This document shows positions 3-5,696 of a stretch of 40,653 nucleotides of DNA, piece by piece. The DNA is from Balneolaceae bacterium. Its GTDB lineage: Bacteria; Bacteroidota; Rhodothermia; Balneolales; Balneolaceae. The stretch's first letter is position 1, and every line of letters starts with the position of its first letter. Under the pieces are notes generated by a model. It ran no database searches. It had not been told where the DNA came from and was given only the letters and a program-made list of their open reading frames with translations. The stretch lies in assembly GCA_020832225.1 (NCBI GenBank), contig JAFIFA010000051.1, positions 1 through 40,653 on the forward strand, given 5' to 3'. Made by a program: the position numbers and the translations under genes.

Positions 3-911
3 GGGGTTGATGCACCCGAGATAAAGACCATTGTTCTTATGCGGACAGTCAACTCTATGGTTGAGTTTAAACAGATTGTGGGACGTGGTACCCGGCTTTA
101 TGACGGCAAGGATTACTTCAGCATGTATGATTTCTATCGGAATCCGCATAGTAAGTTCATTGATCCCGATTGGGATGGTGAACCGGTAGACCCGGAGCCG
201 CCTTCACCACCGCCCCCACCAAAACCATGTGCTGAGTGTGGCAAAACACCTTGCGTTTGTCCACATGAACCTGAAATTTGTGAAGAGTGCGGGAATGCAC
301 CTTGTGTATGTGATAATGCTCCGAGAAAGCTGGTCAGAGTAAAGCTCTCCGATAGTAAAGTGAGAGAACTTGACTCCATGGTTAAAACCTCATTTTGGAG
401 CCCGGACGGCAAACCGATTTCAGGTGAGGAATTTGTACACAATCTGTTTGGTGACATACCCTCCTTTTTTAAAAATGAGGATGAACTGCGCAAGATCTGG
501 AGTAAACCAGAAACAAGAAAAAGATTGCTGCAGGAGCTAAGCGAGAAAGGCTACAGCCAGACTCAACTCGAAGACCTCAAGAAAATGGTGCATGGAGAAG
601 ATAGCGACCTGTTTGATGTGCTTGCCTACATTGCGTATCACTCCGAGATTGTACCCAGAACGGAACGGGCCAGCAGAGCTAAGCTGCACTTAGATTCTTA
701 CGATGCGAAGCAGCAGGAGTTTATTAACTTCGTTCTGGAGCAATATATCAGAGATGGTGTAAGCGAACTGGACGATGAGAAGCTGCCAAACCTCATAGAG
801 CTAAAATACAATGCACTGGCCAACGCAAAACGAGAGCTGGGCAGTGTAAAAACGATTAGGGATACATTTATTGGATTTCAGGAGTGGTTGTATAGTGAGA
901 GGGTTGGGTAG
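3..911 (+). CDS. hsdR: Type I restriction enzyme R subunit, C-terminal part (5' truncated by window)
   Basis: The reading frame is open from base 3, upstream of the first ATG at 39. It encodes GVDAPEIKTIVLMRTVNSMV followed by EFKQIVGRGTRL, the last helicase motifs of the SF2 motor of HsdR (motif VI is QIVGRGTR). HsdR is the ATP-dependent translocase/nuclease subunit of type I restriction-modification complexes. After the helicase comes a proline-rich linker, then two CxECGxxPCVC-type Cys clusters (about bases 225-312), then the helical EcoEI-type C-terminal domain that binds the HsdM/HsdS core. The nuclease and most of the helicase lie outside the window, as do any hsdM/hsdS genes. It sits on the far side of what looks like a tRNA-Val island. 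The family call is firm; activity cannot be judged. Confidence 0.93.
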   Translation, partial: GVDAPEIKTIVLMRTVNSMVEFKQIVGRGTRLYDGKDYFSMYDFYRNPHSKFIDPDWDGEPVDPEPPSPPPPPKPCAECGKTPCVCPHEPEICEECGNAPCVCDNAPRKLVRVKLSDSKVRELDSMVKTSFWSPDGKPISGEEFVHNLFGDIPSFFKNEDELRKIWSKPETRKRLLQELSEKGYSQTQLEDLKKMVHGEDSDLFDVLAYIAYHSEIVPRTERASRAKLHLDSYDAKQQEFINFVLEQYIRDGVSELDDEKLPNLIELKYNALANAKRELGSVKTIRDTFIGFQEWLYSERVG

Positions 912-2044: not shown

Positions 2045-4732
2045 TCATTCCTCCGTTTTGTTTTTGCCTCCGATGAAGGTGATAAATCTGTCATCTCCGC
2101 TTTTTCTTTCGACAACTTCCACTATTCCGGGTTCAAGGTCAGCACATTTTTTTAAATGAATAGTGAACTTAGCCTGCGGAATTGTATCCCCATATTGCAA
2201 GTATTCTAACTCGAATTTTCTGTGAAGATGAGGCTTGAAGTATTCAATGCCCGGCTCTATCTCATCGTAGAAGAATTGCACCAATTCTGCCGACGTTTCT
2301 AGTATCATCTTTTTCTTAGCGTAGTTCCCTTCGAAACTGGATAAACCGTTCTTGAGATAAAATTGAAGACAAGTGATCACAAAATTATCAAACCGGCTCC
2401 ATTCCTCAGAGTCCCAATCATCAAAAAAAGTTTGACCAAATTCCTGGTCTACAGTTCTATGGGGACCAAAATAATCAGGCAGCTCAACAATGTTTTGGCG
2501 CCTTTTAAAACTGTTACCTGTACCACCAACAGAACTGTTTGTTGTGATGGCTATTTTTGGCGACAACCTGAAAGGTATTTGAACTTGATCTTTATGCTTT
2601 TGCTCAACAACCATGTCATCGGTGATGATATTAAACAGACCCTCAAAGTCAAACCCCGGGCGAACGTCATCGATCAAAACAACCTGATCTCCAATCGTTA
2701 CCCCTTGAAACGCAAACCGGTGAGAAGGCTGAAAGTTTTTTCCTTGTACATAATTGTACTTTCGAATGTGATCAGTGGCCTTAATTAGAAGGCTTTTTCC
2801 CGTTCCACCTTGAGCTTCTTCAACTGAATCAACGATTTTTCCATCTACCAGAATAAGCGCTTTAGCATTTGCTTTGTCTTTATACGTATGGAGTAAATAC
2901 CCAAGGCTTGATTTAATCGCCTGATATCTCGCTGGGTCATCCTGTCCAAGTTTTTGCACAAATTGCTCAAATACAGCATACGCTCCGTTCACTTCATTTA
3001 CTTCAATGGATCTTTCAATTATCTGATCTTTCCATATGACGCCGTCTAGCTCTGAATAGGGAATTACTTTAGCAGACGCCTGCGTAATTTCTAACACCCC
3101 ATTTTTATAGAAGAGGAAAGCTTTATTTGGCTCATCTGTCACGAAGTGGATTTCTTTGTTTCTCAGTAACAACTGGCTCTTTTCACCTGACAGAGAGCTT
3201 GCCTTTACGTAGTATGCGTTGTGAATTTCATTGCGCATTCTTTCCGGTTCATCTTCATCAAGCAATTCAATTGGAATTTGATCAATGAGGTCTCTGACAA
3301 AATCATTCAGCTTAGAAAGGTTTACAGAACTGATAATATTATCCTGTTTTCGGATACTAATAGGTTCATCTCCAAAGTAGATCTTCATAAATCCTTGTTG
3401 CTCCAATACATCTATAAAGCTTTTATGGTGAATTGAAATACCGGATTTTAGTGATCCTCGCCAAAATTTAGATATCCTCTCCGGGTCTATATTTTTGGCT
3501 CCAGATGATGTAGGAGCTTCACTAGGCATCTTTGCTTGCTCTGCGCCGCTATCCACTTCAGTCTTCTTTGATTGCCCTGATTTATTAGCCATTTCAAATA
3601 TCATTGAACGCGCTTGATCCATTTCAGTCTCTGGAATTTGCATCTCATCATGGTTACCTGAAATTAGCTCATCCCGGCTCTTCCCTGCCCTAAACCAATC
3701 AGCTAAATCCTTCAATTTTCCATCTGAAATTGCGTGAATATTCACGAGTTTTACCTCAATGTCTGTGGTCATACGCTTTATTGACATTGCAATATCAATC
3801 GCATTGCGCTTAGCCTCATCTGTATCGCAATCAAAATAGACCAACACCTCTCTGGTACCCCTTTGGAAAATATCATTGATAGCTTTTTTTTGGAGATCGG
3901 TTAGCCGCGTGTTTTCTCCAGAGCAAATGCTAATGCAGTCATCAGTGGTATGTTGTGATAAAAGCATTGCTTCTCGAGGAGATTTACAAAAGTGGAGTGC
4001 TTTTGTCCCGCTTGTTTTCTCTAGACCAAAAATTGTATGCTTAACTTTGGATCCTGGCAGACTCAATATGACCTTTTCATCCGTATACTCGTTTCTGCGG
4101 TAGAGTTGAGCCCCGGAGAAGTATGGTATCAACAGGAAGTCTTCATCGTTGTATTGATGAATACCGCACCCATGCTCTATTAAGGTTTGAAAAGTAATTT
4201 GGTCATATTTGCCAACCATCTTCACTAATGGGTGCTCTTCCTCAAGCGCATCTCTAGCAGCTTGTAATAGTTTAGCTTGAACCTCATCCTTCCAAAAATC
4301 TTTTGGCTGTTTTGGACCATCTTTCTGAGAAGAATGCGTAGTTGATCTTGACCGGGTCGGCAAGCTAAAGCCTGCATTCCCATTATTCGTTGTATTTGTT
4401 CGATATGGCCTAACAATTGCCCATATCTGTTCCATCGGCTCAATTACGCTCTGATCAGGATGATTGAAATAGCGCTTCACAAGTTCCACGATATTTCCTG
4501 TTTCACCTGTCCCTTGATCAATCCAACTACCAGTTTTCACATGTACACCAAACGAAGGGTGCTTATCCTTTCTAAGCGGTGAGCGGCAGACAATGAACCC
4601 ATCTTCATTTGGCTCCCTCGATTGCAAATCGATCCCTAAACTATTATAAACCGCAACGATTTCAGTTTCAGTAAGCGGTAGCAGATCTTTTGGGATCAAC
4701 TTTGTAAGGTCAATTTTATTATTTTTACTCAT
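2045..4732 (-). CDS. Island-encoded primase/helicase (Toprim + SF3-like P-loop ATPase)
   Basis: The 895-residue protein has three parts. Residues ~45-90 form a CHC2-like primase zinc domain with only C49 left (CRSPLRKDKHPSF, then W-x-D-x-G-x-G-x-x-GN). Residues ~243-305 form a Toprim domain with the catalytic Glu in KSPREAML (E254) and the DxD motif in YFDCDTD (D301, D303). The C-terminus is a ring-helicase-type ATPase with Walker A GGTGKS (642-647), Walker B VVLIDD (684-689), a sensor Asn in AITTN (732) and an Arg pair at 744-745. This is the architecture of replication proteins of phages, P4-like satellites and integrated elements. It would prime and unwind the excised element. The ATG overlaps the stop of the preceding small frame as ATGA, and alpA lies upstream on the same strand. 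The exact family name is not certain. Confidence 0.85.
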   Translation of the reverse strand: MSKNNKIDLTKLIPKDLLPLTETEIVAVYNSLGIDLQSREPNEDGFIVCRSPLRKDKHPSFGVHVKTGSWIDQGTGETGNIVELVKRYFNHPDQSVIEPMEQIWAIVRPYRTNTTNNGNAGFSLPTRSRSTTHSSQKDGPKQPKDFWKDEVQAKLLQAARDALEEEHPLVKMVGKYDQITFQTLIEHGCGIHQYNDEDFLLIPYFSGAQLYRRNEYTDEKVILSLPGSKVKHTIFGLEKTSGTKALHFCKSPREAMLLSQHTTDDCISICSGENTRLTDLQKKAINDIFQRGTREVLVYFDCDTDEAKRNAIDIAMSIKRMTTDIEVKLVNIHAISDGKLKDLADWFRAGKSRDELISGNHDEMQIPETEMDQARSMIFEMANKSGQSKKTEVDSGAEQAKMPSEAPTSSGAKNIDPERISKFWRGSLKSGISIHHKSFIDVLEQQGFMKIYFGDEPISIRKQDNIISSVNLSKLNDFVRDLIDQIPIELLDEDEPERMRNEIHNAYYVKASSLSGEKSQLLLRNKEIHFVTDEPNKAFLFYKNGVLEITQASAKVIPYSELDGVIWKDQIIERSIEVNEVNGAYAVFEQFVQKLGQDDPARYQAIKSSLGYLLHTYKDKANAKALILVDGKIVDSVEEAQGGTGKSLLIKATDHIRKYNYVQGKNFQPSHRFAFQGVTIGDQVVLIDDVRPGFDFEGLFNIITDDMVVEQKHKDQVQIPFRLSPKIAITTNSSVGGTGNSFKRRQNIVELPDYFGPHRTVDQEFGQTFFDDWDSEEWSRFDNFVITCLQFYLKNGLSSFEGNYAKKKMILETSAELVQFFYDEIEPGIEYFKPHLHRKFELEYLQYGDTIPQAKFTIHLKKCADLEPGIVEVVERKSGDDRFITFIGGKNKTEE

Positions 4733-4965
4733 AAGTAAATGAATTTTAATTGTTTAAATGTTTCAATACACTCCAGAGATACCCAATCGGTAGACGTAGT
4801 TTTTCCACATCTGACCGTCCTTGACGGTAGCCTGGTAGCTTTTAAGATTTCGGTATTTTTTTCGGGGGGCTTACAAATGAAATGCTGTCTAAAGCTGTAA
4901 GCCGTTTGTCGGAGGGTTTTTCGGTATTTTTTTAACGGTGGAGTAGCTGCGCCTTTATGGGACAA
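4729..4965 (-). CDS. Doubtful small frame between alpA and the primase (78 aa)
   Basis: The frame starts with TTG one base after the alpA stop and ends in an ATGA overlap with the primase start. That placement would fit a translationally coupled operon gene. Against it: there is no visible ribosome-binding site, the composition is odd (rich in Lys, Arg, Thr, with no clear domain), and it runs straight through a hairpin and a repeated A-rich motif shared with non-coding DNA upstream of alpA. No family is recognised. It could equally be an untranslated leader carrying regulatory structure for the primase. Confidence 0.28.
   Translation of the reverse strand: MSHKGAATPPLKKYRKTLRQTAYSFRQHFICKPPEKNTEILKATRLPSRTVRCGKTTSTDWVSLECIETFKQLKFIYL
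4848..4933 (-). repeat. Hairpin flanked by direct repeats, related to the array upstream of alpA
   Basis: Two copies of TTTCGGTATTTTTTT (4848-4862 and 4919-4933) flank a hairpin with the perfect 8-bp stem GGCTTACA (4868-4875) / TGTAAGCC (4896-4903). As in the three-unit array at 5192-5365, the stem directly follows a TTTTTTCGGGG block on the plus strand (read on minus: stem-loop, then CCCCGAAAAAA). A separate small hairpin, ACCGTC-CTT-GACGGT, lies at 4814-4828. Confidence 0.55.
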
Positions 4966-4966
4966 G

Positions 4967-5152
4967 CTATTTAACAGTAGGCAAATTCGTTACCCATTCC
5001 ATTATATCAGACTCGATCCAGCCAACGCAACGATTTGAAACTTTTCTACACGGCGGCAGCTCTCCATTCTGCACCATCCTCCATATAGTAGATCTGGAAA
5101 CAGAAAGTAGTTTCGCTAATTCAGCTGGTCGGATAATTTTTATTTTACTCAT
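4967..5152 (-). CDS. AlpA/excisionase-type HTH protein
   Basis: This 61-residue protein begins MSKIKIIRPAELAKLLSVSR and continues STIWRMVQNGELPPCRKVSN, ending WIESDIMEWV. That is the winged-helix MerR/AlpA pattern: I-I-R-x-x-E-(V/L)-A-x-L-L-x-V-S-x-(S/T)-T-I-W-R, then a wing (GELPPCRKVS) and W-x-E-x-D-I-x-x-W. AlpA-like proteins of prophages and satellites activate integrase expression or act as excisionase (directionality factor). The length is full for the family. It heads a minus-strand unit with the primase and is preceded by a hairpin array that may contain its promoter or binding sites. No integrase is next to it. Confidence 0.88.
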   Translation of the reverse strand: MSKIKIIRPAELAKLLSVSRSTIWRMVQNGELPPCRKVSNRCVGWIESDIMEWVTNLPTVK

Positions 5153-5191: not shown

Positions 5192-5365
5192 TTTTTCGGG
5201 TAGTCCAAAGACTGCAAGAGGCAAAATCTTATGCGCTGGACTGTTTTTAGATGAGTTTTTCGAGTAGTGCAAATCTGCGAGAGGCAAATTGAATGCACTG
5301 TACGTTTTAGATAGGTTTTTCGGGGGATTGCTTAAATTGGGAGAATCAAATTTATTAAGCAATTC
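5192..5365 (-). repeat. Three tandem hairpin units with covarying stems
   Basis: TTTTTCG blocks begin at 5192, 5256 and 5316 (spacing 64 and 60 bp). Each is followed by a stem-loop: AGTCCA/TGGACT (5202-5207, 5237-5242), AGTGCA/TGCACT (5266-5271, 5294-5299) and ATTGCTTAA/TTAAGCAAT (5327-5335, 5355-5363). The stem sequences differ but pairing is kept. The loops share an AGAGGCAAA-like core (5217, 5279; AGAATCAAA in unit 3), and the spacer TTTTAGAT-x-x-G recurs between units. On the minus strand each unit reads stem-loop then CCCGAAAAA, ending upstream of alpA. It could be a replication origin with iterons, a regulatory RNA leader, or excisionase-binding sites. Confidence 0.7.
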
Positions 5366-5529
5366 ATCACATAATACGACACTAAAATAATTATGTCAAA
5401 CTGATGTTGAAACTTTTTCCTAAAGCTACTCAAACTAACTAACGTTGTTAATTGTGGGTATAGTCTCATACTGTTGTTTTTAGCAAAGTGAAAGACAATC
5501 TACATCAAGACCTTCGATAAGCACCATTT

Positions 5530-5548
5530 GTTGTCCCAATGTTGTCCC
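5530..5548. repeat. Direct repeat GTTGTCCC x2 near the tRNA 3' side
   Basis: GTTGTCCC occurs at 5530-5537 and again at 5541-5548, an 11-bp spacing close to one helical turn. The pair lies between the hairpin array and the tRNA-Val terminator. Short helically phased repeats beside a tRNA attachment site can be integrase arm sites; this is a suggestion only. Confidence 0.3.
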
Positions 5549-5570: not shown

Positions 5571-5614
5571 AAAAAAAGCCTGCCACTATGTAAATTCATA
5601 ATTGACAGGCTTTT
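5571..5614 (-). terminator. Rho-independent terminator of tRNA-Val
   Basis: On the minus strand the stem AAAAGCCTG (5614-5606) pairs with CAGGCTTTT (5582-5574) and is followed by further Ts (seven in total, 5577-5571). It begins 8 bp after the tRNA 3' end, so it should terminate the tRNA transcript. Confidence 0.85.
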
Positions 5615-5621
5615 ATCTGTG

Positions 5622-5696
5622 TGGGTGGTACAGGATTCGAACCTGTGACCCCCTGCTTGTAAGGCAGGTGCTCTGAACCAACTGAGCTAACCACCC
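5622..5696 (-). tRNA. tRNA-Val (anticodon TAC)
   Basis: The minus strand folds as a full cloverleaf: acceptor GGGTGGT/ACCACCC, D arm with AGCTCAGTTGGTTCAGAGC, anticodon stem CCTGC/GCAGG with the loop CTTACAA (anticodon TAC), and T arm ACAGG-TTCGAAT-CCTGT. The discriminator base is A and CCA is not encoded. Its 3' end faces the primase/alpA region, the usual orientation for a tRNA used as an integration site. Confidence 0.97.

Follow-up and report, generated by a model that had tools for sequence, protein, structure and literature searches.

What purpose is served by three imperfect tandem repeats, each with a hairpin of its own, that lie between a tRNA-Val gene and an alpA gene in a Balneolaceae genome? 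The first-pass annotation had seen selection on structure in this array and had proposed a replication origin, a set of excisionase sites or a regulatory RNA comparable to the P4 immunity RNA. The DNA analysed here (the window) is a contig of 40,653 nucleotides, C68, from a draft genome of 3.37 Mb in 231 contigs.

The element and its genes

The features that define the setting of the array are the following.

5621..5696, minus strand: tRNA-Val (TAC), the integration target, with the att repeat at 5621-5667
5574..5614, minus strand: intrinsic-terminator-like inverted repeat directly downstream of tRNA-Val
5529..5548, plus strand: two TGTTGTCCC direct repeats, at 5529 and 5540, possible integrase arm sites
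4967..5152, minus strand: alpA, encoding an AlpA-type excisionase/regulator of 61 amino acids (PF05930)
2045..4732, minus strand: gene for a protein of 895 amino acids with DUF5906 (PF19263; PHROG 28855, function not annotated), a putative primase
39-911, plus strand: C-terminal part of an EcoAI-family type I restriction R subunit, the gene running off the contig

The last 47 bp of tRNA-Val (5621-5667) are copied at the end of contig C168 (L030, 1501-1547), and since this copy diverges within the tRNA, an element is integrated in tRNA-Val. The duplicated tRNA 3' end at the far boundary is typical of tRNA-integrated elements, and the att duplication marks contigs C68 and C168 as the two ends of one such element. 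In the window the element extends from 5620 leftwards and continues beyond the contig end at position 1. Read leftwards on the minus strand, the order is terminator-like repeat, TGTTGTCCC repeats, array, alpA, a fourth hairpin and the primase-like gene, with alpA oriented like tRNA-Val and downstream of it. The restriction subunit is probably defence cargo of the element. To the right of tRNA-Val the scanned genes look chromosomal (a large Ig-repeat protein, fatty-acid oxidation, transporters, a tRNA synthetase). The genome has four integrase candidates, none of which could be identified as that of the element. The annotated setting, beside a genuine alpA, a primase-like gene and tRNA-Val, was thus confirmed.

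Anatomy of the array

The array comprises three imperfect tandem units of about 62 bp at 5192-5378, with stems of 6, 6 and 9 bp, each unit beginning with TTTTTCG(G/A)G. A fourth unit, between alpA and the primase-like gene, is grouped with them by flank and stem. Coordinates refer to the plus strand, and the strand of U1 to U3 is assigned from that of alpA.

5192..5255, minus strand: unit U1, hairpin 5202-5242, 6-bp stem AGTCCA/TGGACT, loop 29
5256..5315, minus strand: unit U2, hairpin 5266-5299, 6-bp stem AGTGCA/TGCACT, loop 22
5316..5378, minus strand: unit U3, hairpin 5327-5363, 9-bp stem ATTGCTTAA/TTAAGCAAT, loop 19
4858..4918, minus strand: related unit U4, hairpin 4868-4903, 8-bp stem GGCTTACA/TGTAAGCC, loop 20
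5245..5264, plus strand: conserved spacer copy 1, TTTTAGATGAGTTTTTCGAG
5305..5324, plus strand: conserved spacer copy 2, TTTTAGATAGGTTTTTCGGG

Within the alpA-primase operon the array occupies the same-strand leader, at 40-215 nt before the start of alpA; its hairpins are clear of the start codon. The unit-to-unit spacings of 64 and 60 bp are not both multiples of three and the array holds only short ORFs, which argues against a coding role. On the alpA strand no terminator-like T run is found 3' of the hairpins, and no promoter could be assigned, the TAAATTTG box in U3 having no clear -33 partner. U1 and U2 each have a GTAG at their foot. Around the fourth hairpin, identical 15-bp stretches (TTTCGGTATTTTTTT) occur at 4848-4862 and 4919-4933, 71 bp apart; judging by this flanking pair, it looks as if the unit had been inserted or duplicated.

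Relatedness of the units exceeds that of shuffled sequences for U1-U2 (identity 48/61, z 11.7, 0/300 shuffles), U2-U3 (z 4.7, 0/300), U3-U4 (z 3.4, 1/300) and U1-U3 (z 2.5, 9/300). The chance of an equally long stem at the same place, also from shuffles, is 0.043 for U1, 0.025 for U2, 0.0015 for U3 and 0.0005 for U4; the stem evidence is weak for U1 and U2 and strong for U3 and U4. The spacer TTTTAGATNNGTTTTTCGRG has two exact occurrences, against 0.10 expected at up to 3 mismatches. Tandem Repeats Finder did not report the array, because the copies are too diverged. The units, stems and spacer, and the kinship of the hairpin at 4868-4903, therefore stand as first described. The loop core fared less well: a good AGAGGCAAA is confined to U1 and U2, its place in U3 is taken by GAGAATCAAA and U4 has no core, while GAGAGGCAAA-like words are found in the window at chance frequency (46 observed, 44.6 expected).

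Covariation of the stems, from which selection on structure had been concluded, likewise has less behind it than was claimed. A single compensatory pair, C-G to G-C, distinguishes the 6-bp stems of U1 and U2, a change with a chance of about 3% given two stem differences (a hand estimate), and the U3 stem is unrelated to those of U1 and U2; all units are on one contig and no orthologous array is available for comparison. The minus (alpA) strand RNA folds with a z-score of -2.96 (2/200 shuffles as stable) and the plus strand with -2.19, also better than shuffles; read on the plus strand, U1 and U2 gain two G-U pairs. Predicted folding slightly favours the alpA strand but is compatible with either.

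Searches for further arrays

A covariance model was built from the three units; an alignment that included U4 left stem arms unaligned and was not used. Among 245 genomes of the class, the model recovered the window's units with E-values of 5e-9 to 1.5e-6. Five weak extra matches (E 0.006-0.08 per genome) correspond to about the chance rate for 245 genomes, and the three of them that were read (L065, L066, L069) seem to be coding and have no tandem copy. The same model gave nothing convincing besides the window's units over 40 sources of related loci. A pattern search at 3 mismatches in 92 genomes of the family matched the window alone, and a DNA search of its own genome found the array in single copy. 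No array was found beside 26 related alpA genes, and beside 8 related primases only isolated repeat pairs were seen. Around 21 related alpA genes neither the spacer word nor the loop word exceeded shuffles, the exception being a 14/18 spacer match at L045; at L044, where the recognition helix of AlpA is nearly identical, no clear spacer or loop word is found near alpA. In viral contigs the spacer pattern and the primase gave no match, while AlpA led to four distant loci, all devoid of the array. A comparison of the leader with Rfam gave no match that reached the gathering score; with the limit relaxed to E 5, the one hit was a chance snoRNA match outside the array.

The array is therefore an orphan, present in no other genome searched. 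As no further instance was found near related alpA or primase loci, its standing, judged by the criterion of the first-pass annotation itself, as a conserved element, as an origin for the primase or as a set of AlpA sites is lowered, and none of the three functions first proposed gained support. The remark that no described element has such a layout still holds as far as these searches reach.

A start-codon hairpin in related alpA genes

Many alpA genes of the same taxonomic family, probably Balneolaceae, carry an inverted repeat of which the 3' arm overlaps the start codon or lies directly against it, while the 5' arm begins 34-49 nt upstream of the start. The stem sequence varies among loci, for example GGTTTCTACTGT-22-ACAGTAGAAACC|ATG in L062, TTCATAATTTTTG-19-CAAAAATTATGAA in L040 and TAGCTTTATGAGT-18-ACTCATAAAGCTA in L096. 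Measured as the duplex energy of the start region with the 52 nt preceding it, the hairpin is present at P 0.05 or less in 19 of 27 other alpA loci of the family (L038, L040-L042, L045, L046, L048-L050, L052, L053, L056, L061, L062, L075, L076, L078, L084 and L096) as compared to 13 of 141 control gene starts (Fisher P 7e-11); the pattern was spotted by eye and tested afterwards, and some of the loci are mutually related. Of the family loci, seven were retrieved once the pattern had been noticed; six of these show it by inverted-repeat score and five by the energy test. Between two related loci, L056 (GTTTGTCATC/GATGACAAAC) and L084 (ATTTGTCATC/GATGACAAAT), an outer pair is compensated by changes that are silent in the protein. 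Across the family the hairpin thus has a fixed position and a free sequence. Additionally, at L039 a compound fold-back extends from about -122 to +12 of alpA, in which two separate stretches of upstream sequence are complementary to the start region.

TAnnTTTG-like promoter boxes occur most often at -50 to -31 of alpA (15 hits/20 positions), where the 5' arm begins, and a transcript from such a box would lose most of that arm. When a start at -26 is assumed, the modelled alpA start region is on average 55% unpaired, versus 27% in the longer transcript. The hairpin of the relatives looks like a fold-back protection of the excision gene against read-through. It is absent from E. coli alpA (L074) and from AlpA loci of other families of the phylum (L088, L092-L094, L097-L100), and no paper on AlpA start hairpins was found in the literature. 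The window's own alpA has no such hairpin, its start region giving an energy of -7.6 against a shuffle mean of -7.2 (P 0.38), nor is there one at longer range. The start-codon hairpin is a more general and better supported result than the array.

A proposed structured leader and its alternatives

We tentatively regard the array as a structured leader of the alpA-primase operon in the tRNA-Val element, with a probability of roughly 35%. Directly established are the relatedness of the units, the beyond-chance stems, the same-strand leader position and the fourth unit before the primase-like gene. Any transcript entering from the tRNA side would carry the tandem, self-contained stem-loops before it reached alpA, and the differing stems would favour pairing of each hairpin with itself over pairing with its neighbour. 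Because most relatives' alpA genes have a variable start-codon hairpin and the window's alpA has the array instead, we infer that the array may act in RNA, holding down alpA, and thereby excision, or insulating it from stray transcription. It would then be a different structural solution for the leader that the relatives fill with the start-codon hairpin. The presence of that hairpin in 19 of 27 relatives makes structure in alpA leaders a recurrent theme of such elements; the replacement by the array would rest on one case of absence, two further loci (L055 and L082) having neither hairpin nor array. The stability of the minus-strand RNA fold and the unit spacings unsuited to coding speak for a structured leader. 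Against it stands the absence of any homologous array from the searches, so that there is no covariation among orthologues. Also against it count the better-than-shuffled fold of the plus strand, the position of the hairpins off the start codon and the lack of a T run behind them and of an assignable promoter.

It is possible, if somewhat unlikely, that the array works at the level of DNA, its spacer and loop words being sites that AlpA, the integrase or a replication initiator would recognise at intervals of about six helical turns, and its hairpins inverted half-sites or extruded structures. The spacing of 60-64 bp, the conserved spacer, the proximity of the att site and alpA, and the fold of the array as single-stranded DNA (z -2.79, 0/200 shuffles) all suit such sites. 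The stems, however, vary among the units as sites for one protein would not be expected to, the relatives show no clear spacer or loop word apart from the single match at L045, even where the recognition helix is nearly the same, and the related primases have no comparable arrays beside them. An unlikely explanation of similar weight is relaxed tandem duplication, by which a hairpin sequence was duplicated by slippage and is now drifting, its pairing partly inherited and partly due to chance. U1 and U2 are plainly paralogous, their stems thus not independent and individually only weakly beyond chance, and the lone compensatory change and the lack of homologues agree with drift, whereas the strong and different stems of U3 and U4, with related flanks, do not.

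The remaining alternatives have lower probabilities. That the leader yields a small antisense RNA of the P4 CI/C4 type, terminating the replication operon and giving immunity, would agree with the position of the array ahead of a primase gene, as in P4, but is improbable: complementarity of the seqA/seqB/seqC type has not been demonstrated, Rfam gave no match and the primase belongs to a family other than P4 alpha. Very improbable are hairpins of the attC, REP or IS200/IS605 type, which variable stems with fixed flanks, the GTAG at the foot of U1 and U2 and the Y1 transposase genes in the genome might bring to mind. The units contain no attC core motifs, the array is single-copy and no units were found beside the Y1 genes examined.

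A structured leader would bear on a general problem, as an integrated element has to keep its excision genes silent next to a strongly transcribed tRNA gene; if structured leaders silence such genes, this explains how these islands stay put. A wider proposal, which we consider doubtful, is that alpA leaders form a class of fast-changing structural insulators, mostly a single start-codon hairpin of which the sequence turns over while pairing and position are kept; in this element a tandem array of mutually distinct hairpins would have taken its place, a kind of leader with no earlier description. The array itself is a real, modest, orphan feature.

Comparison with known systems

Integron attC sites have the core motifs GTTRRRY and RYYYAAC flanking each hairpin. 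Here a single such word is present, at 4969-4975, outside all units. REP/RAYT hairpins were likewise rejected, the array being found at one place in the genome and at none of the Y1 transposase loci examined. With iteron replication origins the array shares direct repeats near a replication gene, but its units are imperfect, of 60-64 bp and with differing stems, and they have no counterpart at the 8 related primases; origins elsewhere in the elements are possible.

Characteristic genes of P4-like satellites include psu, delta, sid and epsilon, none of which was noticed in the part of the element that the window contains. The element resembles these satellites and CP4-57-type islands in its tRNA target, AlpA, primase-like gene and probable defence cargo (the type I restriction subunit). 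The window's alpA carries PF05930, the AlpA domain of P4-like satellites, and to this extent agrees with the label P4-like. The label is otherwise loose, as the published marker of the P4 alpha primase family is PF03288 (PMC8628076) and a Pfam scan of the 895-aa protein gave only PF19263/DUF5906. The likeness extends to the leader, which in both cases precedes the replication operon of an integrated element that has alpA and a primase-like gene. In P4 the leader is associated with the CI RNA, an antisense RNA of the C4 type; the leader described here matches no known covariance model in Rfam, has no demonstrated antisense segments and precedes a primase of another family.

Fold-back leaders that sequester the start codon are known from the transposases of IS10, IS50 and IS200. 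Such a leader keeps read-through transcripts untranslated, and its sequence can vary while pairing holds. The window's array differs from them in that it lies off the start codon as a tandem set of three, and pairing with the start region, found in 19 of 27 relatives, is not seen for the window's alpA (P 0.38). What is shared is an inverted repeat in the leader of a mobile gene, and the alpA hairpins of the relatives fit this type.
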